Source of the DNA: Deuterostichococcus epilithicus
Taxonomy: Eukaryota; Chlorophyta; Trebouxiophyceae; Prasiolales; Stichococcaceae
Assembly: GCA_033439295.1 (NCBI GenBank)
Contig: JAVTLE010000007.1
Coordinates: 1,984,001-2,048,000, forward strand
Direction of reading: 5' to 3'
Length of the DNA: 64,000 bases
Below the pieces are notes generated by a model, which ran no database searches, had not been told where the DNA came from, and was given only the letters and a program-made list of their open reading frames with translations. Position 1 is the first letter of the stretch, and each line of letters starts with the position of its first letter. A program made the position numbers and the translations under genes. Positions 841 through 48,100 of the stretch are shown in pieces.

Positions 841-3800
841 ATGACAATGAGGTCATCCTGGGATGGACTTGCTGCGATGCAGCGGCCATGCCGGAGGGAC
901 ACTCAGGGGGCTGTCGCGCGAGATCGTCCTGGCGCCGCCGCAGGTCTCAGAAGGCACACTTCTGTCGCCCTGCAAGCTGGGGGGTGCCGGCTAACCACTG
1001 ACAGAATCCCCCCTCTGCGGGCCTGCAGCGGCGCCACGCCGGAGGACTTCAGGGTGCTGCCGCGCAAGATCATCCTGGTGCGGCACGCGGAGAGCGAGGG
1101 CAACGTTGACAACTTCGCCTACACCTACGTCCCCGACATGCAGGTCCCCCTGGTGAGACTGTGGCTTCCTCGGCGTGCAATGTCCCTCGAGTGCGGAAAC
1201 CTCCCTCCCCTCCCTCCTCTCCCTCCCTCCCTGGTCTCCCTGGTGCACGGGTCCGGCGGTCTGGGCGCCAGTCTCAGCATTGAGCCTGCTGCTCTGAACC
1301 GACCGGCTCGGCAATTCGACTGCCGACGTCAGGCTTCTGGGAATGCGGGTTTGCACCCGCTACACCTGTCCTGGCTGGGCCCCGCTCAGCTGCCGCACCC
1401 TCAGCCTGTTGCCGATACCCTCGCTGCCGCTGCTCCCCTCATGTGCACGGCTGTGTCGCAGCAGCCTCCATCTGACCCCGGCCGCCCGCCTCCACGCGGA
1501 TCCATGACATCCATCAGCCCCTGACATCCATCACGCCCGCACACGCATCAAACCCTGACCTCCTCCCGTCCTGTAAACCTTGCGCACAGACGGAGCGGGG
1601 CAAGGCGCAGGCGCGCAGCGCCGGGCGCAAGATCCGGCGCGTCATGGAGGCGGACCGCGCGCCCTACTCGCTGTTCTTTTACACCTCCCCCTACAAGCGC
1701 TCCAAGCAGACACACGAGGAGATCACCGCCGCGTTCGACTCCAAGCACCTGGTCGGCGCCCAGGAGGAGGTGCAGCTGCGGGAGCAGGTGCGGAAATAAG
1801 TAGGGGGAAACACGGGGCCATTCCATGATCTTACGACACCCTGCCGTTGCTGGCCGTTCCTCTCAAAGCGCCTTCCCCCCGAGATTTCATTCTGAGCCTG
1901 CTGCATTGCCTCCTGGTGTGGTCCTCGCGCGCCAGCTCATGCAGCACGCACGTTGAGGTTGAGCCCCTGCCGCCGCAGGACTTTGGAAACTTCCAGGACA
2001 TGGAGGGCAAGGAGCGGGAGAAGACAGAGCGGCTGCGCTTTGGCCGCTTCTTCTACCGCTTCCCCAACGGCGAGTCCGGCGCGGGTGCGGCGTTCGTGGG
2101 GCTCTGCGGCCACCCGGAGTACCCATCACTGCCGCAAGTGCAGCTTGCTTGCTCGTCCTGAGGCGCCTGTGAAGACTGGCGCATACAACGCTGCAAGAAC
2201 CACACGCCGTGCTGAGCCGCCCCAGACAGGCTGCCAAGCCGCGCCGGCGCCGCAAATGCATGCAATACCACATGACTGCATAGGGGAGCCGCTCAGAATG
2301 CAGCCGCAACACCGTAATCACGAACTGGTCTTCTGCAGACGTATACGACCGCATGACGATATTCGAGGACCACTTGGTGCGCGACATCAACGCGGGCCGC
2401 TTTTCCAAAAACACCTCGCTGGTGCTGGTCACCCACGGCCTCGCGCTGCGCATCTTCCTCATGCGGTGGGCCACCGCACCCGGCGCCTCGATGTCTTCAC
2501 CGTGCGCCTGGCTGCATCGCTGCTGCAAGGATGGATCGGCGCTCCCCCGGTGCTGCTGGCGGCTGTTGTGCCGCGTGAGGTGCTCCGCCTCGTGCCGTGA
2601 TCGCACGTCGACGCATCCCTGCACGGGCGGAACCCTTCCGAAACATGGGCGCGGCCTTGATTCGCTGACAAATAGCCATCTTTCCGGTACCTGTAGGTGG
2701 TTCCACTGGACGGTGGACCAGTTCCTCGAGGTGTACAACCCGCCAAACGCCGAGGTGGGGGCTTGGTGCAGCCCCACAGACATGGAATGAAAGGATGGTT
2801 CGAAGTGAATAAGTCAGCTGGACCCACTGGCCGGCGCATCCATGCCGCGCCCGTCTGCCTTTCGTGTGCCTGCATGTGCTGGGGCAGCTCTGCAGGGCTT
2901 CCTTCTTCCCATGCCTCAGCCCATGCCTCAGCTGGCTCAGGCAGTGGGTGCTGACGGGTGGCTGCTGTCCTGTGCCGCAGCCGCTGGTGCTGGAGAGGGT
3001 GCCAGGTGACACGGAGGCGCGCCAGGGCGGTCCGGCGTCCTGGATCCACACCAAGGTGTGTTGAATCCAGAAACCACCCTCTCAACCACACGCTTTCCTA
3101 GGCTCTCCCACCGTCAGCACGGGGCATGTGCAGCAGCAGCACAAGGGGGATTGGCGGGGGCAGCAGCTGACAGAGCGTCCAAAGGAGTAGACCAGTCTCT
3201 GTGCGCAGCCTGCACCCGACAGCCCTGGGCGCCAAGGCGCAGCGCCGCGCAGGCAGACGAACAGACAAGTGCTGCCGGCAGCACCGGCCTGCTGCCTGAT
3301 CTCACGGGCTCGCCCCCTCTCTCATCGGCCGCCCCTCCCACGTCACGCGGGCTCTGACACGGCTGCGTGTGCGCACCCCACGCCACGCAGGCGATGTACC
3401 GCGTGAGTGGGGAGTCAAGGGACCTGCTGCGCGGCTGTGCGACCTGCATGGCGGCGCAGCCGGTGGGCACGCTGCTGCCGGATCGGTCAGAGGAGCTGCA
3501 TGCGGCTGCGCTCCAGGGGGGGCGCCAGGGTGACCTGTCCGACGCGATGCAGCCGGGGTCAGCCGGCAGCCTGGCGCCCTGGGACGACCGCGAACACTCG
3601 CACGCGGGCGGCCGCGGCCCGGTTGCCTATGCTGCGGAGCACGAGTCAGATGGGGAGGAGCTGCACCCGCAGCCGCATGGGGACTCAGCGCAGCAGCACG
3701 GGGACTCGCCGCAGCAGCTCGGGGACCATGTGTACATAGACTGTGTGGACGACCCTCTGATCAGCGACCTGCACAGCCCGCGGGAGCTGGACCCGCCAGA

Positions 3801-4077: not shown

Positions 4078-4313
4078 ATTCGACGAGCTAGACCGACCGA
4101 GACCCGCGGAAGTTTGGTGCAGCATCAGACGGACCAGCGAGGGCAGTCAACGTGACTGGGTGCACTCTTCTGTAGCACAACAGCAGCCACATTTAAGACC
4201 TAACCAATCCGGCAGTATCCACAGGAGCTTCAGACTAGTTTCTGATCTCCAGTGCTTTTAGACTTCAGATGCAACGAAATCTGACTATTTAGAGGACGCC
4301 ACCTCCCAATTCT

Positions 4314-4318
4314 TGTAA
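4314..4318 (+). terminator. Candidate polyadenylation signal TGTAA
   Basis: TGTAA, the usual green-algal polyadenylation signal, lies 237 bases after the stop of the histidine phosphatase gene. The short motif also occurs by chance, so only its position supports the call. Confidence 0.35.
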
Positions 4319-4370
4319 CACATTCCGCAAAGATGGCTGACGATGTGCGCCTGGCGTTCCTCCCCCACAG

Positions 4371-7424: not shown

Positions 7425-10400
7425 TCAGAATCCCGCCTCGCTGTCCGCAGGGGCTTCGCTGCCACCGGCCTCGGCGTCTGCAACAGCCTCGCCGCCGCCT
7501 GAATCGGCCTCCTCGGCCAGCAGAGCGTCCAGATCCACCTGCAGGAAAAGATGAGAGACATTCACCTTGATGTGGGCATCAAAAGCTGTATGAGCATGAC
7601 GAGGTATGCATTGCCGCATTGAAACTGCGTCCATCCCAGATGCCACCCTGCTGAAGATGACAGAAAGCACTTGTCGGCACATGACCAACTGTTGAGCGAC
7701 CGAGACGTGACCATATCTGCGGTCAATCAATCACATGCAGCGGAGGGCCCTGTGAGCCCCCGCTTTCACAGATACTGCAGACCTGGTCGATGTTGCCGAG
7801 GCCAGGAGGCGCGTCGTCGTCATCGTCGTCCACCTCAAAGCCGGACACCCCCGGCAGCGGCTCGTCTTCCTCCGCCGCCGTCTGGTCCATGTCGTTGTAC
7901 GCGGCGGCAGAGTACGTCTGTGGCGCCTCTGCCGGCTCCGCGCCAATGATGTCCTGCGGAAAGGATGGGTGCGATTGGGTTCCTTTGTTTGTGAGATGGA
8001 GAGCTATGGGAGTATGTCTGCGGCGCCTCCGCCGACTCCGCGCCGATGGTGTCCTGTAGTGTGGTGGTGTATTTTCCTGGTCTATTCCTACAGACAGTGA
8101 TGGGCAGTCATGAGCGGCAAGTCGGCATCAGACTGGACTCAAATGCTCTAGAAACGGGATGCAGGGGGTCGCAGCAGGCAATCACCCTCCCAAGGCACAG
8201 CAGAGCCTGGGCGCGTGCGCCAGCTCGGAGCAGAAACCACGAACGAGACCACAGTGCGAGGGGTTCCCAGTGGTGCACAAGCGCCCTCAACTGCAGGCAA
8301 CTCTGCCACAGACGGGCAGCCAGTGTGTGGAGTGGCAGGAGACAAAACGCACGTCCAGGTAGTTGAGAATGGTGTCCTGGCTATCGGAGCCGGGCAGGAT
8401 GTCGCCCATCGGTCGGTCCAGAGCATCACCCTTCTCCCGCTGACCGTCGCCCACCTGCCGGTGGAAAATCAGTGCCACTCGAAAAGTCGCTTTGCAGGCG
8501 GCAAGAGGCCTACGCTCGGGGGACCCTCCACAGCTCATCATGCCGTGGCTGACGTGCTTTTGCTGTGGTACAGGGCATGCGGAACAGCGCGCAAGGCGCC
8601 GAGCTGTGCATGACAGTGACAGGATGGGAGGCCCAACGCCCGAGGCAGCAGACTCGAGAGAGCTCTGGCGGACAGGCGCACACGTGCGGCTCCGTCAGGC
8701 GAGTCAGGAGCGCAAGACAGGGCAAGACGGAGGTCACCGAAACCTGCAACACGAGGCAGCATAGACGTAGACAGGACAGCTAGGTAAACACTGTTGACGC
8801 CGGCAAACGAGGCGCACCGTGGGGTGCAGGGAAGCGGGGTCCTCGCCGACACGCTGCTGCTCCAGCTCCGCCTCTAGGATGAAGTGCGCGCGGATCCAGG
8901 AGGGCACCCGGTCCTGGCCGTCACCCGCGTAGTAGTCGTGCCGCTCCAGCTCCTCCATTATCTCCCCCAGCCGCATCGCCATGTCATACCTGCGCGGGGT
9001 GGCATCCCAGGGTTTGCAGAGCCCGCCTCGAATCGCTGCATGGCAGGTGCGATGCATGCGAGTCAAATGCACGTCGTTCGTGCGCATTGAGGGCTGACAA
9101 CGAGGCTGAACGCCTGTGTGTGCTTTGCTTGGCAGCGCATGGCACAGAGCGGCGCTGTGGCCTGCTGCTGTGCCCGCGGCCAAGCTGGAAGAAGACTGAA
9201 ATGAAACTTTTTCTGATGCTGTGCGCACCTGCTGGACGCGGCCTCCATCTGGTCATGGTGCAGCGCCATGGCCTTGTCCTGCGCTTGCTCTATCTCCCAC
9301 TCGTCCTGCACCTCCTGGTCGCGCATTCGCTGCGCCGCACGAGACATGCGACCATCAGGGAGGGCGCGACGGTCCCGAGCCAGCCTGAGGTGACGTGACG
9401 GAGGCGACAGGGCCCCGCCGCATCAAGTGCTGCATGTGCAGTGCAGCATCAGTGGGGCACCATAAAGACAAAGCAGCAGCAGCAGCAGTCCGCGGTGATC
9501 ACGCAGCTGCAGTGAGAAAGTGAGGAGTTGTCGCAGAGCCGTCACCTGCAGCTCCTGCTGCTGCACCTCCGGCGGCAAGTCCTCCAAGCGCTCGTAATAA
9601 TCGACATCGTAGGCGCTAGGCCCACGGCCGTAGCTGCCGCTGCCGCCGCCAAACAGGTCGGTGCCCGTCATCAGATCATTGTAGGCATCCTGGAGTCGCC
9701 ACGAAGCAAGTCAGGTTTAGGGGCCGGAGGCAGCAGCGGATGGCTTTGCGAGCTCAGGGCTGACGGGGACATCAGGGCTGACGGGAAACAGCGGCAGTGG
9801 GCCCACCTGCATTCGGGGATCCGACGCCGAGGTCGGACCATTGGAGAACCCCCAGTTGCCGCTGTACGGTATGTCTGCAGAGGGAATGCAGCAACGGGTT
9901 GCCGGATCGTCCAGCAGGGCTTCGGCAGGGGAGTCGATGACAGGCCCTTCAAAGGAGGTTTTTGAAGTGGTGGGATGGCTTCGGTTGCATTGTGCGGGAA
10001 AAGGGGCTCGCCAGCAACCACAAGGATTGCTGGCTCGGCCAGGCAAGCTGCGGACGCGTCCGGCACTGCCTGGCGCAGCGCTACAGGTCCCGGGCATGGT
10101 GCCATGCTTGCTTTGCCAGGGATGTAACGGTACATTCGCAATGATCGTGCGAGGAACCTGACTTTCCCTGACGCCTGTCGGGTACAGCGCTGCCGGCCAG
10201 CGGTGCTGCAGCATGCCTCACCTGGTGCGAGCAGGTCGTCCTCGCCTTTTGGGTCCGGCATAAGCCTCGTGATGTCCCGCATCATCTCCCGATCAGTGCT
10301 GTCGCCCGCCTGCGGTGTCAAGACGCCGTTTGCCTTTCCGGTGGTGACTGCATATTTGCAGTATGCATGGTCGAGCATGCTGCGGATCGTGGCCACATCA

Positions 10401-11632: not shown

Positions 11633-14404
11633 ATGTTGCTCCCTTGTTGTGGCACGCTTGTTCGGTCTGCGCAACGGCACTCGACTCACCGTTTCGCTCG
11701 CTCGGCTGCTGACGTCCTTGCGTTCGCTCGCAGCAAATGGCGGGTCCTCTGTGGGTGTGCCGCGACCACAACGGTTTTGTTGTTTGGCGTTCTGCTGGCC
11801 ATGCACATGGTCAGCACGCCGGGCACATCTCTGCTGTCAAAGCGGCTGGCCAAGCGAGAGCTGGCCGCCGAGTATGACGCATCGACGCCACTCCTGCTGG
11901 ACCACCAGAGTGGCATTCAGCCGGTGAGCAAACTACCCATGCCTTGCTGGCAGCAATGCCCTTCTGGACGCGGCGGGGGTCCAGCCAGCATGAGGCAGGT
12001 CATCGTGCAGAATAGAGATCGTCCATGTCGTGTGCAGGGGCTGGATCCCAATGCCGCCGGGCTGGACCCTGCGTCCGAAGCAGCGGCAGATGCAGAGGAG
12101 GGGTCGGGTGCCATGGAGCAAGCCGACAATGCGGCTGCAGAGGTGGCTGACGCAGGAGAAGAAGCCGTGCAACTTGACGCGACTGAGAATGCCGAGACTG
12201 CCGAGGCAGCAATTGCCGCGGAAGGTGACGCAGCTGCCGACGACGGGGCGACCCCAGGAGAGGGCGACAGTCCACAGCAGGAGGCCGGCGACGAGCAGCA
12301 AGAGGCTGGCGACGAGCCGCTGGCGGCTGGCGGCGAGCAGCAAGAGGCTGGTGGCGAGCCGCAAGAGACCGGCGGTGAACCATTAGTGGCGGGCGACGAG
12401 CCGCTGGCGTCCGGCGGCGAGCAGCCTGAGGCAACCGACGAGCAGCAGGCGGCTGCGGCGGAGGGCGGCGCGGTGGCAAGCAGCAACCCGCATGATGCCG
12501 CGGAAGCAGACGCCTCGGGTTGGGACACGGCGGCGGACGGGGGCGCCAACGAAGACGGCGAGGCTACGCCGGCGACAGCTGCTGAAGGCGACGTTGCGGC
12601 AGCGCCCAGCACGGACGATGCTCCCGGGTCAGCGCCTGAGGCCGCCAAGGAGGCACTCGACGAGGGCGAGGCAGAGCTGTCCGCTCATGACGAGACCGCC
12701 GATGAGAAGCCGGCCGCAAGGTCCTCCATCTTTCAGAACTTGCTCAAGACCGCCAGGTGGGTGGTTTTGCGGCACTGCTGATGACCAACATTGCTTCGCA
12801 AAGTGGTCAAGCTCCATTATTTGCTCATGCCTGTCAGATATGAACCTACTGTATGTGGCATAGCAGCATGCTGCGCAGATCAGCTGCTGGATCTGGTAAT
12901 TCAACCTCAGCGCGACGACTTGCTGATTCCTTGTGCCGCACCCTGCGCCACCCTGCGCAGGTGGCGCAAGGATGTCACTCGGCCGGCTGACAACCCGCTG
13001 CTCAACGAAGAGGATTCCGCCGATTTCACCGAGCCAAACATCGACAAGTCCTTTGCCGCCGCCAGTGTTGCAGCTGACGAGTCGGACGCGCTCGAGGAGG
13101 CAGCCAAGCATGTGTCAGGCGCAGACGAGGCAGCAGAGTCCGTCGCCCTGGGCGATGAGCTGCCCGCAAACCTGGCGGCGGGCAGCTCGCAGCTGGGCGG
13201 CGACGAGCCAATCGGTGAGGTTGCCGCCGAGCAGTCGGCAGCAGCAGAGGATGGCAAGGAGGATGCTGAGACTGCATCGGCAGTCGGCAGCGCCGGTGGT
13301 GCAGCGGAGGCGGGGGACGAGCCGGCGGACGGGAGCGAAGCATCAGCCGGCGATGCCCAAACAGCCGGCGATGAGCCGGCAGACGGGAGCGAAGCATCAG
13401 CCGGCGATGCCCAAGCGGCCAACGACGAGCCGGCAGATGGGAGCGAAGCAACAGCCGGCGATGCCCAAGCGGCCGGCGACGAGCTGGTGGACGGGAGCGA
13501 AGCATCAGCCGGCGACGCCCAAGCGGCCAGCGACGAGCCGGCGGACGGGAGCGAAGCATCAGCTGGCGATGCCCAAGCGGCCGGCGACGAGCCGGCGGAC
13601 GGGAGCGAAGCATCAGCAGGCGATGCCCAAATGGCCGGCGACGAGCCGGCGGACGGGAGCGAAGCATCAGCCAGCGATGCCCAAGCGGCCAGCGATGAGC
13701 CGGCGGACGGAAGCGAGGAGCCGGCGGACGGGAGCGAAGCATCAGCTGGCGATGCCCAACTGGCTGGCGACGAGCCGGCGGACGGGAGCGAAGCATCAGC
13801 CAGCGATGCCCAACTGGCTGGCGACGAGCCGGCGGACGGGAGCGAAGCATCAGCTGGCGATGCCCAACTGGCTGGCGACGAGCCGGCGGACGGGAGCGAA
13901 GCATCAGCAGGCGATGCCCAACTGGCTGGCGAGGAGCCGGCGGACGGGAGCGAAGCATCAGCAGGCGATGCCCAAGCGGCCGGCGACGAGCAGGCCAGCG
14001 AGGCCGACACTGAGCAGTCGGCCGAGGCAGATGGCAAGGAGGATGCCGAGGTAGCGCTAGTCGAGGACATTGCCACCGATCAAGCGGGGGACAGTGATGG
14101 ATCATTGAACAACGAGCAAGCTGACGAGGGCATGCCTGAGCAGTCGGCAGATGTCAAGGTTGAGGATTCTGAGGTCCTGGACAACGAGCAGTTGGCGGAT
14201 GGCAAGGTTGAGGATGCTGAGGTCATGCCACTGGCTGAAGACAGTACTCGCGGCGAGGCAGAGGCTGGCGAGAGCGAAGCCTCAGCCGATGGTGCAGCGC
14301 TTGCCGAAGGCGGCGAGGAGGGTTCTGCTGCTGACGGCGGTGCTGAGGTACAACAAGTGGAGGGGGACAGCGCCGCTGATGCGCAGGACGACAGCGTCGA
14401 ATGA
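11633..14404 (+). CDS. Membrane-anchored acidic tandem-repeat protein
   Basis: Three exons (11633-11923, 12038-12756, 12961-14404) join in frame to 817 residues. Residues about 38-60 form one hydrophobic segment after an Arg/His-rich N-terminus, fitting a signal anchor with the acidic remainder on the other side of a membrane. The rest is almost only Ala, Glu, Asp, Gly, Ser, Pro and Gln and should be disordered. Around residues 175-235 there are about eight copies of a seven-residue unit such as EAGDEPL. Around 454-676 there are twelve copies of an 18-residue unit, DEPADGSEASAGDAQAAG. The first intron is 114 bases long, a multiple of three without stops, so its retention would keep the frame. 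No enzyme domain is seen; the function is unknown and could be an extracellular or plastid-surface coat. Confidence 0.72.
12271..12450 (+). repeat. 21-base coding repeat array
   Basis: About eight degenerate copies of a 21-base unit encode heptads such as EAGDEQQ, EAGDEPL, AAGGEQQ and EAGGEPQ. The period is visible in both DNA and protein and lies in the second exon of the acidic protein gene. Confidence 0.75.
13316..13984 (+). repeat. 54-base coding tandem array
   Basis: Twelve copies of a 54-base unit encode DEPADGSEASAGDAQAAG with variation mainly at the last three residues (TAG, AAN, AAS, MAG, LAG). One extra partial unit (DEPADGSE) is inserted after copy seven. Because the unit length is a multiple of three and few stop triplets occur in any frame, three other frames also stay open across the array. 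Confidence 0.93.
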
Positions 14405-19500: not shown

Positions 19501-20218
19501 GCCTTGAATGTCACCGCCTGCCTGCTGTGCAGCTGGTGTTCAAAGTGTGGCTGCAGGCAACCTCCTCCAAGGTCTGTCGTCCGCTGCGCAGCCGGCATTC
19601 AAGGCATGGCTGCAGGCGACCCACTGTGACAACATGTTGTCTGAGCCTGTCATATCGTCTGTTTGCACAGATGGCCTTCAAGGCATGGCTGCAGGCGACC
19701 TACTGGGATGTGGTAGCCATCTACGAGGACCGGCACGAGGTGGTCGTCCTCGGGCCCGGCGGCCGGCTCATGCGCAAGTCCATCCCCTTCAAGCGCACCA
19801 AGGTTCGGCGCGCCCTCTGCCGTCTCCAGGTCACCGACATGCTGTCAACGTTGCACATGTCTGCACCACCAGCCTTCCTGTGCCCGACCGATGCATGAAG
19901 CTTGGACGCGCACAGGTCGAAGGCCCTTTTCTGCGATCAAGGTCATGACATCTTCTGCATGGCGCACAGGAATTGGAGGCGCTCACAGGGTGGGGCAGCG
20001 CGATGTGCCTGCTGCTGGAGGTCAACGACGTGGCAGCGCCGCTGCTGCAGCGCTTGTTTGAGCGCGTGAGCGCCGCCGCGTCCTGGCTGCTGACGGCCCT
20101 GATAGGGCGCGGCCTGGGGCTCATCTTTCGCGGCGTGCGCCAGAGCTTCCGGTGGGAGAGGCGGCCCACTGCCGGCGGCGGCGGGGGCGCCTCGCAGGCG
20201 CCCCCGGCATTTGCATGA
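16560..20218 (+). CDS. DUF3685-domain chloroplast-type protein
   Basis: Eleven exons (16560-16600, 16682-16909, 17048-17330, 17485-17568, 17798-17945, 18093-18243, 18409-18609, 18796-18919, 19107-19229, 19671-19802, 19970-20218) join in frame to 587 residues. The first 55 residues are Arg/Ser/Ala-rich without acidic residues, as in plastid transit peptides. The C-terminal third fits DUF3685, a family shared by cyanobacteria and plastid-bearing eukaryotes: WLQATYWDVVAIYEDRHEVV, then an LTGW block followed by CLLLEVNDVAAPLLQRLFE, then LIGRGLGLIFRGVRQSFRW. The biochemical role of that family is unknown to me. The middle exons encode Ala-rich helices. Two upstream echoes of the penultimate exon lie in its intron. 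The family call rests on remembered C-terminal motifs. Confidence 0.75.
16767..16802. repeat. Perfect 15-base inverted repeat (hairpin)
   Basis: ACCAGGGCGGCGAGG at 16767-16781 is followed by the six-base loop GTTCCT and its exact reverse complement at 16788-16802. It lies inside the second exon of the DUF3685 gene, in the presumed transit-peptide region. With 15 GC-rich pairs it should form a stable RNA hairpin. Confidence 0.9.
19533..19570 (+). repeat. Echo A of the DUF3685 penultimate exon
   Basis: After TGTGCAG the sequence encodes LVFKVWLQAT, a copy of the true exon start MAFKAWLQAT at 19671. The distance to the true acceptor is 138 bases with no in-frame stop, so use of this acceptor would add 46 residues in frame. 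Confidence 0.85.
19592..19629 (+). repeat. Echo B of the DUF3685 penultimate exon
   Basis: After TGCGCAG, 33 of 38 bases match the true exon start at 19671-19708, including an unbroken block of 23 bases. Read from its acceptor it encodes PAFKAWLQATHCD against MAFKAWLQATYWD. It lies between echo A and the true exon. Confidence 0.9.
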
Positions 20219-20955: not shown

Positions 20956-23900
20956 ATGCCGTGGCTGCATGGCACGCTGTACGCCACCGTGCTGGAGGCG
21001 CGGGACCTGCCGGACGACAACAACCTGGGCATCAATGTCAAGACCAGCATTCCAGGCGCCAAGTCCAAGTTTGGCGGCATGCTCATGAAGGGCGTCAAGG
21101 CGGTGGAGGAGGGCGTCGGTGCGTTATGCTTTTCCCTGCTTCTGCCACTGCCTGAGGTCACGAGGCTTTGAACAGAGACGACTGGACTGGGTCGTGTCCC
21201 GACATACACGTGCAGGAAGCAAAGAGTCCAGCGCCACATGCTGGTCTGCCTGGTGGTCACTGCTGCTGTGCGGTCGGCTTCGCGTACCCTTCAAGGCTCT
21301 GCTCGTTTAGCATTGCAGCCGCGCAGCAGCAGCTCTGTGAAGATTCCCCACCTGACGTGAATCATTCCCGAGCCCTGGTGCTGTGGATCTTTGCTCGGGT
21401 CCCTGCGCATGAACAAAAGTGGACAGAGCGCCCGGCGCCCGGACAAAACTTTCATGCCGCCGCATGTGCGCCGCGGCCAAAGCAACCGATTGCGACTCGC
21501 AACGAGACATCGACCCAACGCTCCCTGCACACGCTGCAGCCAAGGCGACGCGGCTGGCGGGCAAGCCCGACTGCTACACTGTCATTGAGCTCGCGGGGGC
21601 GCGGGTGGCTCGCACGCGCATCGACCCAAAGACCAACAACCCCAAGTGGGGCGAGAAGTTCGTCATCGCGTGCGCCCACGACGTGGACGCCGTCATCGTG
21701 CGCGTGAAAGACAAGGACGCCGTTGGCTCCAAGACCATGGGCATGGTGCGTGCATATTCATGCGAGTGCATTCATACGGGTGTCAAGAGAAAAGGGGGGT
21801 GCTGTACTCCATCATTGGGTTGCTCTCAGCTTGGAAAGGGTCTGAGCCGGACAAACATACGGCGCTACAACTTGTAGCCGCGTGGTTTCTCAAAGGCAGT
21901 GTGGTCATGAGCCATCAAAGCAACCCACTGGCGGAACCTGCCGAGTTGCACGACAAGGCGTGAGCAGCGACGTCATCCACGAGAGGCGTGGTCCTCTCCA
22001 TGCGAGCGAGTCTCCAGCCCCTTGTGAATTTGCCAGAGACTGCTTGCCGCCGAAGTGTGGTCTCTGTCAGCCAGTGCAGCGCGGGCACGTGGACGGCTTG
22101 CCCCTGGACGCCGGGGCTGCGGCTCCTTTGATCATACATGGGCCACACTCCCGCTGGGACGGGTGTGCACACGCGGACGGCTTGCCACTGGACGCCGCAG
22201 CCGCAACTTCTTCTATCAATGGGCCACACTCCCGCTGAGGCGCACCCTGGCAGCAGCGGGGAGGGCTGGGTGCCAGCGCAGCAGCCGCTTGGCACTGGTT
22301 GCTGGGTGCTCCAGGGCGTCTGTCCTCCGCACTGCAGGGCGGCTTTATTATGGCGGGGCGGGGGCGGCCACTGGAGGGCTGCACCCAAGCACCACCTGCC
22401 TCATGCGAAACCCCGCTCCAGGGCCTCTGATTCTGACCGTTCCTCTCATAATCTCTCGCGCCAATGCCGCAGGCAACCTTCCCAGTGGACCAGCTGGAGC
22501 GGGGGCAGCTGCTGGAGGGCTGGTTCCCATTGACCGCCGAGGACGGCACCGCTATCACCAAGCACCGCCCCATGCTCAACGTGGTGCTGCAGTACCAGAG
22601 CGTCCTGCAGGTGCTGGATGTTCTCACCTTTGATGTCACCGTTACCTGCAGCAGGAAGCCATTGCCAGCTCCCAGCCTACTTGAACTCCGCCCCTGGTGT
22701 GTCGCCCCGTCCACTCGCTGCTTCGCCATGCGCGCTGACCAGCATTCATGCCGCTTGAATAAATTCGAGCCTTGGGCAACCTTCCGCGCCACAGCGCAGG
22801 GGGTTGTAAAGCTGTCTGAGGCCACCATGTGGCCCTGGCTGGTGTAAGGCAGGCTCCCGAATATGCCAGCATCCAGATCACATAACCAATGACAACCCCC
22901 CTTTCTGTGGTTCAGGATGCCAAGTACCAGCCGGGCGCACACTTCGGCGGCGTCACGCAAACATACTTCCCATGCCGCAGCGGCAACAGGGTGCGGCACC
23001 ACCATTCCCCCGCATTCGGGCACAAATGCTCGACCGAATGCTGTAGACACATCGTCAACCTGCATCTAGACTCACGCAAGCTCTCGAGACCCGCAGCCAC
23101 CTGGCCTCCCACAAAACAAGCTGGAACCACCATGCGCAGTATTGTCAACATCCGAGTGTGCTTCGTGCGCAGTTGACGATGTACAAGGACGCCCACTGCG
23201 GCGACATCCCCGACATCCCGCTGGCCAACGGATCCCTGTACAAGCCGGGCACCTGCTGGATCGACATCTACAACTCGATCCGCGAGGCACAGCACTTCAT
23301 CTACATCGCAGGCAAGCTGCTGTGTTGTTACTGATCCGCACCCTGTTCTGGCCCGCGGCTGCTGTGCACGTCAGCAGGTATGCCACACACGTCGTACTGC
23401 TGAGCCTCTGTACATTGGGCGGCGTGTGGATGTCATGCCAATAACTTGTGCTGCTGCGTCAAACATGATGTCGATCATCGTCAGCGCGCACCGCCGTTGG
23501 CAGTGCCGAGGACTGCCCTCACCGATGTGTCCAGACACTGCCAATGTCTCGAGGCTCGCATCAAGATGGCAGCGACACCAGCTTGAGTCATGCAGGCTGG
23601 AGTGTGTACACGGAGATAAAGCTGGTCCGGGACCCAACGCTGCCCAACAGCCAGACGCCATACCCCACCCTTGGCGAGCTGCTCAAGCAGAAGGCCGACG
23701 AGGGCGTCACCGTGCTGCTCATGGTGCGCTTTGGTCTCGGGACGCTGACGTCCACTGCCTCCACCTGGCGACTCGTGCGTCCTGATGTTGAACTTCCAGA
23801 TGCTCCAACACCAAGTTGGCTGCTCAGCCAGATGCCGGCGAGCGCATCGCCGTGCTGCTCATGAATTGCTTTGTTGGGGGTTTTCTTCTGGAACGCCAGC

Positions 23901-26900: not shown

Positions 26901-29900
26901 ACGCACCTGGTGGCGGTGGAGCTGGCGCTCAAGATTGTGCAGAAGATCAACGCCGGGCAGCGATTCATGGCCTATGTCCTGCTGCCACTGTTCCCCGAGG
27001 GTGCGCTTTGAACCCCCATGGCACCCCAAGCATACTCTGAAAGTTACGCTCTAGGCCCCCGCGGCCGCTCCTGCCCTGGGTGGCATCACCCTTGCTGGCG
27101 CCTGCACACGCGCAGAGCCGCCGCCACTGCCGCCATCAGCCGCCCCCCCAGGCCGATGCGCCTGGCCTCAGCGCCCTCGTGCATTGCTGCTGCGCTGTGT
27201 TGGCGGTGAAGGTAGACCGAAGCAGTGACCAATCTCCAGAATGCATGCGGTCATCCGCTGCAGTGGAAAAACACTCCTATTTGGTCCCTGCAGGGCCACC
27301 GGAGAGCGGCGCAGTGCAGGAGATTCTGCACTGGCAGGCCAACACTGTGAGCATGATGTACAGCCTCATCGCCGACGCCATTAAGGCCAAGGGTGCGAAG
27401 CCTGTGGGACACGTCGTGCATGCACATTTTTAACCGATGCACGGCAGCATCTGGCTGCGCCGTCGGCTGTGTGAGCACTTTCTGCCTGCCTGTCGACAGC
27501 GAGCTAGAGAGTCCTCTGACCCACAGCGCCGCCACGAAACTGCAGCAGTGCAGCCTAATTCCGACAGCCGCTTGTGCGGCACATCGTTTCACTGCTGTGC
27601 TGAGCACCTCGCCGCTCAGCTGTCAGGACATCGACCTTTGACTACACAAAGTGGATGTCAGCCTACTCGCAGGCTGTCATTATGCCGCCAGGCCTGGTGG
27701 GCACACACCCGCAGGACGATTGGTCCGTGGACTCATGGTTCAGTGTATCGACAAGCCATACAACATTGCAACGATTTAAACCAGACCGTCACCACTTCGA
27801 CAGGCCTGGCGGGCGCGCACCCGCAGGACTACCTGCAATTTTTCGCGCCCGGGAATCGGGAGTCGGTGCTGCCCGGGGAGCCGCCTCCGGAAAAGAGGGC
27901 GCCCGGCGGCGGCGGCGCGGAGCTGGCGCAGCTGTCGCGCCGCTTCATGATCTACGTGCACTCCAAGATGCTCATCGTTGACGACGAAGTGGGCAGCTGA
28001 ACTCCTCACTGTCTCTGCCGCTCTGACCTCCGCACTGCTCTCCTCACCGTCTTTTCATTGCTGTCCTTGACTGAGCAGGCAGCCGTCGTCTGAGCGACGG
28101 CACCCTGCGGTCCGCCTGCTTTGCGAGTCTGACGCGGACAGTCTCATCAAGTACTGTGCGCTCCTGCGGTCTCACCTCGTGACAGATGACAGGCGCCGCG
28201 CTGCATGCGTCATACTCCCTGCAGCCAGTCTCGCCGTCACACTCCACTGGAGAGCAGCCATGTGCTTTCCTCCCAGCCCTCGTAGTTTCGAACCCACTTC
28301 CTCCGCTGCCCGCAGTACATCATCGTCGGCAGCGCCAACATCAACCAGCGGTCCATGGACGGCGCGCGCGACACCGAAATCGCCATGGGCGCCTTCCAGG
28401 CGGGGCACCGCGCCAGCGGCGAGTCCACGCCCGACGGCGACGTACGCCTTTTTGATTGTCTATCTGCTCACCCCTGCTGCTGCCGTTGCTTCCGGAGACA
28501 CCAGCGGCGAGCTTCACCCCCCGGCAGCGACGCGGGGTGCTCTGTTCTCCTCTTCTCATCTTCCGTCGCCATGGGCACCTTCCAGGCGGGGCATTGCGTC
28601 AGCGACGAGTCAGCTTTCCATATTCCTTTGCTGTTTTGGTCCTGCCCCGTAAACAGGCAAGGACTGTGCCGCCCCACCAACAGCGACGTGCGCCTTCCTC
28701 TGCAATTACCTTCAGTTTTTGCACCTGCCCATGTCGATGTTTCTGCAGACCCTTGTCATTAACCTTGCTCCTGTTGACTCTCTGGGCTTTGCCACGGCTG
28801 CCACTGCAGAGGAGCAGCTGTAAAGTTGACACGCCTGGGATGCACCATTCCTTGGGAGCGGCGGGCAGCTCCCCATCTCTGCGGTCCAGCCTGGCTGCCG
28901 CCGTGCCTGACGAATGCTGCAGGCGACCCCCCAGGCAGCCCCCCTTGTACTTCCTCTTCAGACTAGCTCCCCGAAGCTTCCCACTCCGCCTCCAGGTGCA
29001 CGGCTTTCGCGTGGCGCTGTGGGCGGAGCACACCGGCATCGTGTCGCCCAACTTCGCATTCCCCGCGGACCTGGACTGCGTGCGCGAGATGCGCCAGATC
29101 GGCCTCATCAACTGGAACGTGCGCATCTTGTCTGTCTGCCATCCTTCCACGTCAAGCCTGCTACTTATGCAGCGACCTTCCGAGGTCGCAGCCGCATCCG
29201 TGGTCGAAAAACAACCGGCTGGTGGCCCGCATCAGCCCCATCAAATGGTGTGCACGCGCTCAGGGGGAGCACCCTGCGTCACCCTGCCCCGACGTACATT
29301 TTTGCCATTGGAGGCGCAGCGGCAGCTGACCTGGGGGCTGAGCGTGCCCGCACCTGCCGTCCTGCAGCGCGCTCGCCCTCCCCGCGGGATGTATTGACCG
29401 GCGGCGCAGGTCTGAACGAAGCACCACTCTGCTGCCCTCGTCCCAGGGCTGGCCAGGACTGCAGAGCCCGTCAGCAGGCCGACTGGCTGTGGCGGCTCCA
29501 GCCGGATGCCAGTCATCCCCAGCCTCGAAGCCCCCTGAAGTCAACGCCGCGCCTGCGCAGGTGTTTGCGGCGCCAGATGTGCAGGACATGGCGGGCCACC
29601 TCATGCTGTACCCGTACCAGATCGACGAGAACGGCGGTGTCACCTACCTGGGCACTGAGATGATCCCCGACACCAAGACCGCCAAGGTACGCCCGGCTGG
29701 CAGCTTGCAACCCCGTCAGCTTTCCCTTTGGATCCTGGACTCGCCGGCTGCCTTTGGTCTGCTCAATGTGCCTGTTCCTTTGGGGGCAGCTACCCGTCAA
29801 GGTTGTCGCTGAGACGGTTCGCCGCCACGGTTTCACCATGCCCTCGTCCCACAGGTGCTTGGACAGAAGTCGGCGACGCTGCCGTGCCAACTGACGACAT

Positions 29901-35693: not shown

Positions 35694-38600
35694 ATGGCGC
35701 CACCGCAGCAGCCCAGCGCGCTCCAGAAGGTCATAGACGCGGGCCTGCTCGAGGACGGCGCCCTGCTCATGTACAGGGTGGGTTGCGGACGATGATGCGT
35801 CTGCCGAAGCACCTGGCATCCGTGCGGCGCACCACATGCTGCACGTTGCATCCCAGCCGTGCCACCGCCGATAAGTGTTTCGTGCGCCCATCCAGCCGAA
35901 AGGGGGCGAGATCAAGGCGGTCGGCAGAGCGCGGCGCGGCGGCGTGGAGGTGGACGGACACCCGAAGCTCATGAACTTTGGGGCCTTTGAGGCATACGCC
36001 GGCAGCTCGCTGCGGCGCGCGACTGGCAACATGTATGCGGTGAACGGGCGCACAGTGCAGGTGCGGTCCGGCACCCCACAGCTGGTCCTCCGAATGGCTG
36101 CGCTGCTGGGCTGCCGGACCAGCCGCCGCCTGCTTGACCCAGTGCAGAAGTTTGAGCAACGATATGGCGTGAGCTTGCTGATGCCACACGCAGTCTGCGC
36201 ACTGCAGGATCTCGTTTTCGAGGCCACAAGGGTGCTGGCTGCGCGGGAGGACGCTGCGGAGCCGCTGTCGCCTGACGGCAATGACGACCTGTGCTCTGTC
36301 TGCTGCCTCGGGGTGCGCCCTCCAGACGGCGTGCCGCTGGTCCTGCCTTGAGCTGTGCTCTGTCTGTGGCTTCCTCAGGTCGCATCCCTGATGCCCATTA
36401 TCAGGGTGACCTGACGCTTGCTCTGCCAGCACTGCAGGGGGACCTGCTGTGCTGCGAGACGTGCCCGGCGATCTTCCATCTGGAGTGCCTGGGACTGGGC
36501 CAGATGCCGGCGGACGAGCAGTGGTTCTGCCCAGCCTGCGTGTGCGCCGTCTGCGGCCGCCCCGGCTTTGGCGACGCCGTGCATCCGCTATGCCCGGTGC
36601 GCTGGACGCTGCATGCACCGCAAACTCACTGTTCTGCTTCGTTCTGCTAGGCTCTGAAGCTCGAGTGACAGGAGGCTGAAACGAGACGCAGAAGAGCAGG
36701 GGCATGACCGGCGGCAGGCAGGCGGTACTGCGCTCCGTTTTGCGGCGTCAGGATGGCGGAGGACATACACATACATACATGCTGCTGGTCAGCTGGACAG
36801 CTGTACCCTCGCAGGCGCACTGGATCATCACGCAGCCGCAGGTCGTTCCTGGCCATGTACCTGATGGGCCAGCCGCCAACGGTGTGCAGGTGAGGCTTGT
36901 TTGTAGGCCCAAGTTTGCGAGCCCACCTTTTGAGCAAGCAACGAATGTGCGGCAGAAACGAACCCCCCCCCAACCCACAGAGGCAGAGTGTAAGACAGGA
37001 CGCTGCACTGCAGGCTGAGCCAGGGTCCGACTGGGACGCACGCGTCAAGGCTGTGGCGAATCTCCCAAAGCTGGTGTGCCGCCTGCAACCTCGCTGCCAC
37101 CCTGCTGGCTTGGGTCTCAGAGCCCTGGCGTTGCTGACTGGCGCCGGGCCTTGCATGCACGGAAGCACAGCATTCAGAGCGGCGTCACGGTCTGCTCCGC
37201 ATCAGGAGAAGCACGAGGCCCCATCGTGCAGGCCTGCGTCAGCGGCATCATCCCAACGCAGCACAGCCCGGCGCCCGGCGCCCCCGACAGCAGGCAGCCG
37301 GGTGCGGCGGCGGCAGCGGACGACGCCTACGTGCGCAGCCCGCTCAGCGGCCGACGGTACCACCTGCAATGCCTGCCGCCGCAGGACCGAGAGCTGGTGC
37401 GGCGCTGCGACTGCATTATTTCTACCCTCACCGTGACTGGGGCTCGGCTGCCCTTCTGGCGTGCCGCTGACCTGGGTGGCATTGTCCTGTTGGTCCGATG
37501 GTCAGAATATGCGCCAGCCGCTAGTGCATGCCAGGGTCACAACATAGGATGCTGGCTTGTCAGCCTGCCCGAGGTCAGCCTGCTGGGCAGCAGGCCGGCT
37601 GGAGTCGAGGCAGCTTGCAGCGCTTTGGAAGCATGATGGCAACCAGTGCACCTGCAACACGGTGTGCCATGATATATGATGTCACTGTTGGTGCTCGTGC
37701 GGCAGCTGGCAGGCACCTCGGCGGTGTGGTTCCCCACGCCGGCGGAGCAGCAAGTCAGCCAGCGGCTGGCAGCGATGGCGGCGGCTGGCCTGCAGCTGGT
37801 GCACGGGCAGGCCTCCCTCGGCAGCCTCAACTGGCAGCTCATCCGTGGGGCGGCCGTCAAGCCGGCAGCAACCGCCTCGGTGCGGCGCGCCCCCAGCAGG
37901 GCTGCATCGTCTCGTGTTTGGGCTGACTGAGCAGCTGTCGGCGCCCGAGTGAGGCCTGGAGGTCTGCACGGCAAACCTGCCGACTGCCAATATGCGGCCT
38001 ACCCGAGTCCAGGCAGCAACTCTTCATCAAACAAATTTCCATGTAAGATATCCAAGGACAACAGCCGGAGGGATGCTGCACCGGCACCGTTGCATCGACC
38101 CCCATCAGCAGTCGCCTGGCAGCTACAGCCTGACTCTGCCGCCATACCCACCTCAGGCTGCCTTGCCGGCCCTGGGGATTCCAGCCGTGATTCGACGTGC
38201 TGGCATCCGGTGCAGGGGTGCCGCGGGTACGCACCCTCGTACACCGCAGGGCAGCAGGCGGAGCTGCAGCGGGTGCTGAACGCGGCGCGCATCGTCTTCG
38301 AGGAGGCGTTCGAGTCCGTTGTCGACCACAACACAGGTGATAACTCGCATCGTTGCACTTTCCCCTTGATGAAATGCGCTGAAGTCCCCGCACAGGCCGC
38401 ACGGTCCTGGCCAGCGGCGAGCTCGACCGGCGATGCCCGCCCGCCCGGGCAGCCACAGCTGCTGCACCGGCGGCGGCCATCTGCTCACCAGCTCCTCAAT
38501 GCCGTGCTTCACCTGCCCCCGCGGGCTGGGGCAGGTGATGTGGACAGTTGCGGCAGCCCTTCAGATGGGCGCGTTGATGCACGCCAGCTCTGTCCTGCGA

Positions 38601-42116: not shown

Positions 42117-45100
42117 ATGGGCTGCTCCTGCTTCGGGGGCCGCGGCGCCAGCCGCCGCAAGGACCCCACGGAAGATGAGCCAGTGCCCCGGCCCGCCAAG
42201 GTACTGCGCCACTCCTGTGCCGCACTGCCATCCCCAACCTGATGCTGTGACACGTGCATGCATGCCTCGAAAGGGCAACCTGTGCCATCCTGAAGTAGCT
42301 ATTCAACAAGATACCCACGCAATGTGCTGTGCAGCATGTATCGGCGGCGCCAGTAGAGCCGGAGACGCCGTTGGCTGCTGGCGCCGGCGAGGACAAAGCT
42401 GCGCATTCGTCACCGGCGGCACTGTCCCCCTTCCAGGCGGCGTCATTGACAGGCCCGGTGTCACAGGCAGACAGCGCGGCGCTCGATACGCCCGGCACAG
42501 CCACGTCACAGCCAAACAGAGCCGCAAAGCCGGCTGCCCGCAACGACTCGGCGGCGTTGCCAAGCCCTGCAACGGCGGCGGCCGCGGCGGCGCCGACCGC
42601 GGCAGACGGCGTGGAGCCCAGCAAAGCAGCGACTGGTGCCACCGCAGCGGTCATGGACTCCAAAGTCAGCCTCGAGTCCAAAGTCAGCAGCCAGGTACAG
42701 GGGCTGGACTGGACAGCCCGACCAGAGAGGATGCATGTTTGATATGTGGAGGGAACCAGCATGCGCGCGTGCTGCGGCCATTGGTCACTTTCATAGCAGC
42801 ATAGAGTGCTCGCTCAGGTGTGTTCCACAAATGAGTCCATCGCTGGTCAAGCTTGTGGCAGCTGGCGCCAACTGGAGCTGTTGCACCCTGGCCTGAGCAG
42901 GCCAGCATCGGCGAGCGGCGGGACACGGTGCCGGAGACGCTGCCGGCCAGCGGCGCCAGCAGCGGAAGAGGGGAACCGCCGCCTGCGCGCGGCGACACCC
43001 TGCAAGCGCGCTCCGACCTGTATGCCCGCCTGCCCGCGGTGCTGCGCACCCGTTCCGGCGGCCCGCTCGAGGTGTGTGCATTCCTTTGCCCCGGCAAGTC
43101 GGCAGCCGCTCACCGTAAATGTTGAATGACCTCGGAGGATACGGCGTCCCGTTGTGATCTGAGAGGTTGCGCAGGCCCTTACTCACTGCTCTAGCCCGCC
43201 CATGGCTGGAAGTGGCCTTTCTTGCGGCCAAGAGGAATTCACTCGAGCGGCGCTCCTAGTTCACGAGTCCTGCGGCCGCACCCAGGCCCCCGACTCTCTC
43301 AAAGCTGCATATGTGCGATCATGCTCCGGACATGCAAGCCTTGGCACGACACGAAATTTTTGCGCACAGCGCGCTGGTGCAGGCCGACCAGGCCCTGCAG
43401 TTGTCCAAAACCAACTGCTGCCTGCGGCTCAGGCCATCCGCCATCGCCGGCTGCGCGCGGCCCCCTCTAAGCGTGTCGTTGCCACACCCTCCAACATCTT
43501 ATATTCGTCTGTTTGTTTCCCTGTTCCAGGGCGTGGAGATTGGGCCACTGCTGGGCAAGGGCTCCTTCGGCTGCGTGTACAAGGGCCGCTGGAAGGGCGC
43601 CATGGTGGCCATCAAGGTCCTAGAGCACGCGCTCATCCTGCAGGACGACATCTCCCGCGAGACGCTGCTGTCGACCTCCATCGCGCACCCGGGCGTGGTG
43701 AGTTTGGTTCAGGGTGTAGAGGTTGATTGTCCAGCTGTGCGTGGCGTGTTTCCCAACTGCTTCCATGATGTGTCTCGCTGCTGTGGCGGTTGTGGCTGCA
43801 GAAGCAAGGCGCAACACTTGTAGAGCTGCTTCGGAGCTGATCGTGAATTGATGACTAGCAGCAGAAAGCGAGCCTGCCATCGTGGAGCGCCGCAATACTT
43901 CGCACTGAGCAACGTGCTGCCGACACACTCTCAGCTCTTACGCTCAGGGCTGATGCTCTCGCCAAAACCCTGCCCAGGTCATCACCTACCGCATCACCAC
44001 GGTGCGAGTGAACGACGAGCCGATGCGGGACTCCTCCGCGGAGGCGCAGCCGCCGAGCAAGGACTCGGCGTCCGGGAACAGCGGCGACCGCCCGGACGTG
44101 CCGCACGCGGCCGCCGGCTCGGCGGCGGCGCAGTCGGCGGCGGCGATGACCGCGGCAGCAGTTCTGACCGCGGAGGGGCAGCCGGCGGAGGACCCCGGGG
44201 CAGCAGCCGCCGCGGGGCCGGATGCGGAGCCGGCGGGAGCGCCGCAGTTCGAGGAGGCCAAGGAGGCCGATGCAGAGAAGCAGGCGGTAAGCGCGCGCCG
44301 CACCTGACGGCCACCGCAAGCTGGGCGCCGCACGCCCGCACTCGCATGTCTGTGGCCCCGCATCCGGGGCACCCGTGTCACGAAGCTGGGGCGCTGCTGG
44401 TGTGGGGGCGCCCCTGCCGCCACCGGCCTCGCAGCGGCAGGCTAGTGCTGGCGGGCCGCGCTTCGGACGGGCCTGCTGCCAGTGGCTGCACTGTAGCGCA
44501 AGGTCCTCTGCCGCTGGTGACTCTGCTGCGCCATCTGGCCGCCCCAGGACGACTGGAGACTCGGATGCTGCTGGAGAGTGCACCACTTCGCAAAGCCTGC
44601 AGCGACAATCTCCTCGCCTTTCTGCCTCGCTGCAGGGTGTGCCGGAGATGCGCATGCCGGTGGAGGCTGCGCCGCGCGGTGCAAAGTCTTGCTGTGCTGA
44701 CGTACTTGCCTCCGTTCTGCCCCGCCGCAGGATGTGCTGGAGACGTGGATGCTGCTGGAGTACTGCGACAGGGGCTCGCTGGCGCGCGCCATCGAGCGCG
44801 GCAAGCTGCAGTCGCGGGCGCCTGGGGGCGGCCCCGACCTGGTGTGCAGGACAGCAGCAATGGGCCAACAGTCATTCGCAGAGTCTCAGCAGTGAATCGT
44901 GGATCCGCATGCAGAGTCCACGCTTCGCTGTTCAGACACTGCTTTCCCCACGGATGGCCCTCTCGCCGTGCTTGGTAACGTCACAGCGATGCCGCCCGGC
45001 CATGCCGGCGGCTGCGGGCATTGGCTGCACGTCTTGCGCTGCTCATCATTGCCAATGTCAGGACTCACCTGCTTCGTTTGTGCTCTCGCAGATGCACGTG

Positions 45101-48100
45101 CTGATGTGCCTCATGGACATCGCATCGGCGATGGCGTACCTGCACTCTGTGGGCGTGCTTCACGGCGACCTCAAGTCCGCCAACGTGCTCCTCAAGTCCA
45201 CGGCCACCGACCTGCGCGGCTACGTCTGCAAGCTCGCCGACTTTGGGTGCGCGCTTGGCGCACAGAAAAGCTAACCGTCCCATCGCAGCCTTACCTGGAT
45301 TCAGCGTTTCTCGCTGATTTACAGTTCTGATTCTGATGCAGCACACCTGCTGCTGATTGATTGTGGCAAGCCACGGAGACAACAATCATGGCGCTGCCGC
45401 TGGGGCGTCAAGCGCTGTACGACGTTTTTGGGTCTTTCATAGTAAAGTCAAGGTCTGGAGGGTGCATCGACCTCGTGCCTGCAATACTTGCAGGCCGAGC
45501 CTGGTGCTTGAGGACAACACAGTGAATGTGACGAACTCCATCCTCGTGTGGTGTGTGGCATCGAGAGGCTTGCTGCCTGCACGGTTCATGACCCTGTGCT
45601 CCCTGTTGCCGACAGGCTGAGCCGGGTGCTGGCTGAGAACAAGACACACGTGTCGACGCACACCTACGGCACCATCTCCTACATGGCGCCGGAGCTGCTC
45701 AGCCTTGGCAAGTTCGCGCGCGCCGCCGACGTCTACTCCTTCGCCATCCTCAGTGAGTGGTCCATGACAGCCTGGGTAGTGTCACCCGCCCGAATCCTGA
45801 TTACATACACATGAGGTTTGGACGGACTGCGATGGCGGCTTGATTGACGGGCAGCCGGGATGTTTCGCCCACAGACATCAGCCAGCAGCCATGGTGCAGC
45901 ATGCTTGCGGTGCCCCTCGTGCTTCTGCCCCACGCAGACGAGGCCTGCTGTCGCCCCATGCCGAGACTGGAGGGGAGGCCAGTCTCCTGCCGTGGGAACA
46001 CCTTGTGACGTGCACAACAGCAGCAGGCCGGGCCGGCTGCCTCGGGTGGGCGCAGTCGCTTGCTGTCCGTGCCCCAGCCAGATGCGTCGGCGTTTGTGCA
46101 ACCCCCGAGTCCCCGTCTGCCGCGCCCCGCAGTGTGGGAGCTGTACAGCGGGGAGGCGCTGTACGAGGGCATGACGGTGGGACAGGTGCTGTATGCCGTG
46201 GTGTACGACTCCAAGCGGCCGCCGGTGCCCGACGGCTGCCCGCCAGAGTACGCCGCCCTCATGCGTGATTGCTGGCTGTCGGAGCCCGCCGAGCGGTGCG
46301 TCTTCCCCCATCTCTCGAGCGCCACGGCGGCGACTGCCTGCCTGCCCTGCTGCACGCCCCCCCCATGTGGGCCTTCCTCCTCCCCCGTGCAAGGCAGCAG
46401 CCGATGGTGCGCCAGCCCGGCTGTCAACTCCGCTTGCGCCGTGCAACCCGACCCAGGCTCTCTTCTTCGTCATGCAGGCCTCTCCCTGTCCAGGCCTCGT
46501 CCTATTCTTGTTCTTGCTGCATCCTATGAGGAGCTCCTGAGGCTTCCTGGGCTCTCTGGCGGCCGTACCAGTGGCCAAACTGGGTGGCCAAGCTGGATGG
46601 CCGGACTCCTCCCCAGTGGCCGTGCCCCCCGCACGCAGGCCGGACTTCGAGCAGGTGCTGGCGCGGCTGCAGCCGCTGCACGACGAGCTGCGCACGCGGC
46701 GGCGCACCGGCAGCAGCCTGGCGACCGCCTCCGCGCCCGGCGTCAGCCGCTCCCTGGCCTTGGGCCTGCTGCCCCGCACGCGCTCCTCAGACCTGCGCGA
46801 GCAGGCCGCCCAGGCGATGGCGGTGCGCCTTTTTGCCCGACGGCGCCATCCCAAACTCCCTTTGCACCCCTTGCCGCGGAAGGGCTGCTGGCGCGCACGA
46901 GCGCCCCCGACCTGCACCAGCAGGCTGCCATGGTGGCGTGCGTCGCCATCTCTCCACCATTCAATGCTGTGGATTTGACCCATCCTGATCCGGAAGGCCT
47001 GGTGTCGACAGGTGGCCGGCCACCACGCTGCTCTGGTCGCCCTGGGGTCGTTCTCACAAGCCTCGTCACAAGTCTTCCCGCGGAACATTGAAAGCCGACA
47101 GCAAAGGAGAGCGTTTCCATGCTTGCAGGCCCAGAGCCCGATGGCGCCGTCACCGCTGCGCCCGAGCGGCATGGCCCCCTCTCGGCCACAGCAGCCGCAA
47201 CCACAGCAGGTGGAATCCGATGCATGACTGGCATCCGAGGAGCTGTGCGTGCCTGCGTGTTGCTGCTGGTGCCATCTTTGAGAAGAAGNAGAGGGGGGGA
47301 GTGTGGATGGGCCGTAGCCCGGCACGCCACAAGTGCCCCTGAACCAAAGAGGGGGGCAGTGTCGATGTGCAGCTGCACGGCAGGCTGCTGCCCTTAAGCC
47401 CCCAAGAGCTCTTGTGTCTGCAGAGCAGGAAATGGTTCAAGCCTCTTTTGCACGGAAGCGTGTCTGAGTCTCCATTCGCGTCTCCACCCTGGCACCGCAG
47501 GCGCAGCCGCCGCAGGTGCAGGCACATCAGGCGTTGCATGCGGAGGTGGTATTGGCAGCCCGCCCCAGCGCCGTGCAGCCACAGCCGCAGCCGCCGCGGC
47601 CGGGCGCAGCGCGGCCGGCGCGGGCGCGCATTCCCGTCGTCAACCCCTTTGCGGCGGCGCAGCAGCGGATGCAGGTACCCCTGCCAGTCCACCCTCGAAT
47701 CGCCGCAGCATCGCGCTTGCAGCACTGGCGACGTAGCTGTCGTGACCCACAAGCGCCAGCTCAGTGGCTGTGTACACGTGTGTGTAAGAGTGACAATCCT
47801 CTGGATGCATGGTCCAGCACAGTTCCGCCCATGGCAGTGGTGCTTCGGCTCTGCCGCCGCATGACGCGCGGCGCCGCCGGTGCCCACAGGACTCGGGCGT
47901 CACGTCGCCGACTTCAGAGACGGCCGACCCCGTCGCCGCCGCCGGCGACGCCGGCGGCGGCGATGCCATGGCCGCCAAGAGCGAGGAGGACACCCTGTCT
48001 CCGCTGACCGGCATGCAGCTCAACCCCCGGGCCAGCCGGCTGGCGGCAATGCACGCCAACTCGCCGTCCGCGACGATGTCCTTCGCCAAGCTCGGCACAC

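Follow-up and report, generated by a model that had tools for sequence, protein, structure and literature searches.

Introduction

Intron gain through tandem genomic duplication of an exon segment that bears AGGT has been reviewed (PMC3443670), small tandem duplications arising through the fill-in of break ends by CST and polymerase alpha-primase, a complex that acts at telomeres as well, have been reported (PMC8355091), and Introners have been described as intron sequence added in many genes (PMC9860276). Here, we report on exon-edge echoes, namely diverged copies of an exon edge within the adjacent intron, in a DNA stretch of 64,000 nucleotides (the window; C6:1984001-2048000, within an assembly of 46.8 megabases and 21 contigs) and in further pieces of the same assembly.

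As in the intron gain treated in the considered content of PMC3443670, a local direct exon duplication ends up inside an intron; however, an existing intron seems to be lengthened here, the copy is an exon edge near its own border with unrelated sequence in between, and in 22 of 24 acceptor cases it lies away from the donor end of the intron. With the break fill-in duplications, so far as the content taken from PMC8355091 goes, the echoes share that they are short, local and direct (40 direct and 0 inverted in adjacent introns), and telomere-like filler is present in two of the four pairs with at least 91% identity over 40 bases; but no exon link was seen in that content, whereas here exon edges are strongly preferred and intron flanks are usually uncopied. 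Unlike the Introners in the portion of PMC9860276 considered, no shared element was seen with the echoes, as the sequence between echo and exon (the filler) matches nothing nearby on average. The considered content of PMC3443670 and PMC8355091 thus leaves the exon-edge echo pattern undescribed. No report of exon-edge echoes in introns was found in searches limited to one open-access literature collection. Internal gene duplication with intron creation, which resembles the present case in being a within-gene duplication that involves splice sites, keeps coding copies, whereas here the copy decays as intron.

Results

Exon-edge echoes occur in adjacent introns far above chance. When the 60-base edges of predicted exons were aligned to their own introns in a 194-kilobase (kb) sample, composed of the window, C1:500001-600000 and three 10-kb pieces, a score of at least 18 was reached by 21 of 314 acceptor edges and 19 of 313 donor edges, compared with 0.10 and 0.05 per set for the same edges against foreign introns of equal length and with 0 and 0 for the reverse complement. 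The recurrence of echoes, which a sequence-only reading of the window had pointed out together with a genome-wide comparison of this kind as its check, is thus real. Counted by pairs, echoes are carried by 36 of 345 introns, which belong to 17 of the 50 intron-containing gene models, a figure that omits the cases in which the model called the echo an exon, such as the one at 8010. Several introns hold two or three echoes, and the echo-bearing introns are longer (median 441.5, n=28, versus 240, n=317). After the removal of low-complexity matches, all 40 exon matches within adjacent introns are direct and 0 inverted, whereas the other introns of a gene, those not adjacent to the exon, have 10 direct and 12 inverted matches in about five times the search space (136.6 versus 25.6).

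The exon edges derive from a simple two-strand gene model, self-trained on the 194-kb sample, whose predictions use neither RNA nor annotation. It yielded 52 predicted genes with 345 introns, the median length being 247 bases for introns and 115 bases for exons, and the modelled splice consensus was GTGCG or GTGAG at donors and YGCAG at acceptors. All seven submitted models or model pieces have a Pfam match (histidine phosphatase, DUF3685, phospholipase D, ribosomal S6, S19e, kinase and Mpv17). The models are partly wrong in detail: positions 8027-8053, part of the 8010-8053 echo, were called a mini-exon, a few donors are seemingly misplaced, and at least three donor outliers among the exon-intron pairs, which were kept in the counts, resemble gene-model errors. 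The families matched by predicted proteins are eukaryotic, the top matches of ribosomal protein eS19 on C1 are eS19 chains that we take to be from plant ribosomes, and the source organism is probably a green alga. Among the matches listed, CCCTAAA telomere repeats stand at ends of C1, C3 and C5. An Rfam scan of the window at gathering scores gave no match, and the intron lengths, judged by eye, have no clear peaks, so quantised intron lengths were not seen.

The copies respect splice borders, as the sequence-only reading held, though not absolutely. A copy end lies no more than 8 bases from the facing exon edge in 25 of 40 cases, against 4.0 expected and a maximum of 12 in 5000 placements, and equally near the opposite edge in 2 of 40, while 7 of 49 pairs extend more than 15 bases into the intron. 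Echoes are roughly 25-85 bases in size and most often run 1-12 bases past the splice border; for pairs with a spacing d between echo and exon of at most 160, the run past the border has a median of 5 bases (quartiles 1-11, 5-95% range -26 to 33). The spacing is at most 160 bases in 33 of 47 pairs, with a median of 113 and a 5-95% range of 85-146 among the 32 measured below that cut; the list of 47 excludes two pairs that end more than 60 bases inside the exon. In ungapped profiles of the 15 pairs with an identity of 82% or more, the first 30 bases on the exon side have identities of 60-96%, and the intron side stays mostly at the splice-consensus expectation. The eS19 gene on C1 provides the clearest example, in which a 58-base copy with 93% identity ends four bases past the donor and unrelated sequence lies beyond.

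The fillers are mostly unrelated to their surroundings: 29 of them reach a mean best local score of 11.9, against 11.6 by chance, and of the three that stand out one contains another echo. Together with a loose-first-look genome search, in which two echo regions had no second genomic copy, these scores leave an Introner family unsupported. Two of the youngest pairs have filler resembling worn telomere repeat (CCCTAAA / TTTAGGG; L009 8457-8479 and L005 5933-5964). Telomeric filler as a general rule was rejected, being seen by eye in only those two pairs.

Ordinary random tandem duplication could, in principle, leave a similar picture through survivorship, since the exon copy is constrained and would keep border-crossing duplications visible longest. 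Some pairs do include intron plainly, such as C1 19393/19497, a tandem duplication with about 99 bases of intron that is visible at 81%, and the 28380/28566 pair of the window, which resembles one longer duplication interrupted by about 60 inserted bases and in which the border is not strictly respected. The C1 case, being detectable, indicates that copied intron flanks can be seen, and together with the simulation below it disfavours the idea that introns change too fast to show them. The 88 direct pairs comprise 49 exon-intron, 29 exon-exon, 9 intron-intron and 1 intergenic pair, when spacings below 45 or from 700 bases upward, scores below 19, low-complexity pairs and overlaps with a better pair of similar spacing are left out; many of the exon-exon pairs are protein repeats or model errors, and the intron-intron pairs include at least three echo-echo pairs (by reading) and one simple repeat array. 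Neutral tandem duplications were simulated on the predicted gene structures with a matching score threshold under six settings, which gave intron-intron to exon-intron ratios of 1.32-1.54 and intergenic to exon-intron ratios of 0.59-0.67, against the observed 9/49 and 1/49. The simulation also placed 29-60% of copies at most 15 bases past the border, against 42 of 49 observed, and, among pairs with at least 84% identity, 22-60% within 15 bases, against all 16 observed pairs, which stop at most 14 bases past it. Random duplication with survivorship is therefore rather improbable as the general source of the echoes. Duplication across splice sites, as the sequence-only reading phrased it, is not enough as a plain random event, for even young pairs usually lack a copied intron side and duplications within introns alone are too scarce; plain tandem duplications nevertheless occur too, and the process is mixed.

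Once made, the copies decay as if free of constraint. In 38 border-anchored pairs, mismatches per codon position are.20/.19/.27, as if the echo mutates at all positions and the exon changes chiefly at third ones. Recombination with unrelated introns of an allele or paralogue is disfavoured, since third codon positions show no concentration of exon-echo differences and eS19, among the best cases, occurs once in the genome. The same decay bears on the suggestion that echoes are retained for a regulatory role, as decoy splice sites or alternative exons. Acceptor echoes often retain their AG (13 of 18, by eye with small alignment shifts allowed), but neutral decay of an AG that was always copied already gives about 12.5, and donor echoes retain GT in 8 of 15 cases (by eye), with about 9.9 expected. 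Of the 18 echo AGs, 1 has a CTRAY branch-point motif upstream, compared with 23% for true acceptors and 8% for intron body, codon positions lack strong constraint, and the spacing is divisible by three in just 9 of 33 pairs. Therefore, with divergence unconstrained and AG and GT retained at the neutral level, regulated decoys, the second explanation offered by the sequence-only reading, are not supported, and we consider them most improbable.

Where an intron holds several echoes, the evidence supports the exon as their common source. Eleven such introns were picked by hand, one being too short for comparison, and in 9 of the 10 informative ones the echoes resemble the exon as much as, or more than, they resemble one another, a result that the slow change of the exon itself favours.

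Echoes are unevenly distributed over the assembly. The 10-kb piece C6:600001-610000, outside the training sample and with 15 introns, has four direct exon-intron pairs at 112, 119, 135 and 141 bases and a single exon-exon pair, and inverted pairs are absent. In four pieces of C19, C13 and C12, the 76 introns have 0 adjacent matches; these pieces contain a single intron-intron pair as well as exon-exon pairs in both orientations, nine direct and five inverted. When C12:500001 and two kinase loci of 3 kb each are counted in, 102 introns hold no exon-intron pair, and one weak C12 match, listed separately, has score 19 and lies 30 bases off the edge. It looks as if chromosomes or gene sets differ in echo density, and the contrast may be chance or gene-to-gene clustering.

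In the window itself, the coordinates of the echoes are collected in Table 1. Nine of the ten sites named by the sequence-only reading match the adjacent exon edge above random intron stretches, in a test whose null may include the same intron, so that its p values are conservative; 36350 fails, and 45494 has the lowest score among the nine. Direct repeats less than 600 bases apart number 37 at a score of at least 22, versus 0 inverted, with low-complexity arrays included.

Table 1. Exon-edge echoes and related sites of the window (d, spacing between echo and exon in bases; site test, alignment of the named site with the adjacent exon edge)
Position	Strand	Exon copied and character	Extent and identity	d	Site test
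773..816	+	second, farther copy of the start of exon 1029-1152	44 bp, 75% to 1023-1066
883..938	+	start of exon 1029-1152, histidine phosphatase gene; CAG precedes			52 columns, 85%, p 0.0005
8010..8056	-	start of minus-strand exon, edge 7910-7953	47 bp, 87%	100	8010-8053: 44 columns, 86%
19530..19566	+	far copy of the start of exon 19671-19802, DUF3685 gene	78% to 19668-19704		19533: 33 columns, 79%
19585..19629	+	near copy of the start of exon 19671-19802; GCAG before exon-like part	45 bp, 87%	79	19592: 36 columns, 92%
22355..22381	+	short weak copy of exon 22473-22640; begins 23 bp inside exon, off edge	27 bp, 85%
23819..23873	+	donor-side, end of exon 23596-23723, phospholipase D gene	56 columns, 79%	141
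27670..27717	+	start of exon 27804-27988 plus about 22 bp of intron	48 bp, 77%	112	27692: 26 columns, 88%
28566..28611	+	donor-side, exon 28316-28441; stops 16 bp before donor	46 bp, 89%	186	28567: 46 columns, 89%
28677..28750	+	probable continuation of the 28566..28611 duplication (exon end, donor, intron start)	gapped alignment score 15
36350..36390	+	named site, not confirmed			score 8, null mean 8.1
44539..44576	+	far copy of the start of kinase exon 44731-44841	85%	183	44548: 24 columns, 92%
44617..44665	+	near copy of the start of kinase exon 44731-44841 with 19 bp of intron tail	80%	95	44636: 34 columns, 79%
45494..45524 (end approximate)	+	weak, start of exon 45616-45752			28 columns, 86%, p 0.0015
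46882..46929	+	donor-side, exon 46639-46822; stops 12 bp before donor	48 bp, 79%	119

Three further repeats were observed. A clear duplication made up wholly of modelled intron sequence in the window (22086-22161 / 22170-22242, 80%, 84 bases apart) belongs to the rare intron-intron class; a C1 block (L010, 87750-87892) is a near-perfect, recent tandem array within a modelled intron; and a gene model at window positions 11807-14404 has long in-frame tandem repeats with units of 54 and 21/42 bases.

Discussion

Based on these findings, we propose, with about an even chance of being right, that the echoes arise by repeated local break-repair duplication focused on exon edges and then decay neutrally. 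First, a staggered break or stalled synthesis at transcribed exons would start the event, and local DNA break repair or template switching, acting mainly at exon edges, would copy the edge twice, with unrelated or filler sequence in between and the borders mostly 80-150 bases apart. The copies that survive would be those that leave the mRNA unchanged, perhaps since the splice site nearest the exon body stays in use, and they would then decay as ordinary intron DNA, while further events at one border would make the intron longer. The direct orientation, the adjacency and the narrow spacing of the echoes suggest that the process is local and acts on DNA, for example by the fill-in of staggered breaks or by template switching, and the preference for exons together with the sharp border points to some mark on exons, for which RNA:DNA hybrids are a candidate.

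Several observations weigh against the break-repair proposal. The spacing figure given above is cut at 160 bases, and 14 of the 47 pairs lie at 169-393, although some of these are second echoes. Copying is also not confined to exons: the second five intron bases exceed the null (.38 versus.28 at acceptors;.60 versus.27 at donors, with 5 donors only), 9 of 35 anchored flanks reach p of at most 0.1 with gaps allowed, where 3.5 are expected, and the filler reaches a score of 12 against the outer flank of the echo in 6 of 42 pairs, where 0.8 are expected, in a test that drops fillers below 20 or above 160 bases and pairs with strongly negative ends. This flank homology above chance, which favours random tandem duplication, indicates that part of the echo set is plain tandem duplication. 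No repeat was found at the ends of 23 echoes, whose longest shared word is 4.0 against 3.7 by chance, and a target-site duplication was accordingly rejected. Echoes are common in the samples from C1, C3 and C6 and occur on C16, whereas hardly any are seen in those from C12, C13 and C19, and in multi-echo introns the order expected if outer echoes were older is inconsistent. Finally, the proposal leaves the exon preference unexplained, and the breaks themselves are inferred.

Alternatively, the copying might be guided by RNA: the borders would be fixed by an RNA:DNA hybrid restricted to the exon, or by an RNA template, and the copy, mainly of exon sequence, would land in a nearby intron. The source is nearly always an exon and the intron side past the splice core is mostly at consensus level, as such guidance would predict, but the average of 30 anchored echoes has no run-on into the neighbouring exon, which is expected of a spliced template and in the absence of which the insertion of spliced cDNA was rejected; moreover, strict adjacency and narrow spacing resemble a DNA-level process, and a minority of copies enter the intron. 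RNA-guided copying is therefore possible but unlikely. In a bolder form, a duplication that recognises borders, probably via exon-limited RNA:DNA hybrids, would copy edges outward at narrow spacing and would have built much of the intron sequence, with far stronger activity on some chromosomes than on others; this, too, we put forward only tentatively, as an unlikely case.

The echoes might also be remnants of introns gained by tandem duplication of AGGT-bearing exon segments. C13 and C19 carry kinase paralogues that read straight through the site of the window intron in which the echoes at 44548 and 44636 lie, and therefore this intron was gained in the window gene or lost elsewhere, and at least one echo-bearing intron varies in presence between paralogues. 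However, such gain predicts that the downstream exon would be echoed at the donor end, whereas in 22 of 24 acceptor-side cases the donor and the echo start are 100-609 bases apart, and just 2 of the 24 echoes begin with GT, which makes this origin very doubtful. The paralogues (L015 1430-1522; L016 1440-1514), which lack an intron at the site of window 44287-44730, have an intron of their own a few codons further.

In conclusion, introns here seem to grow through local copying that favours exon edges. The suggestion of the sequence-only reading that introns grow by repeated local duplication agrees with the direct-only orientation, the restriction to adjacent introns, the several multi-echo introns and the greater length of the carriers. 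The lengthening of introns without a mobile element is an old open question, and in this genome about one in ten sampled introns still reveals the origin of part of its own sequence, in copies of many ages. Such a genome permits the rate, the source and the borders of intron growth to be measured directly. If it is true that the copying follows splice borders, splicing or its RNA would be linked to change in the DNA.

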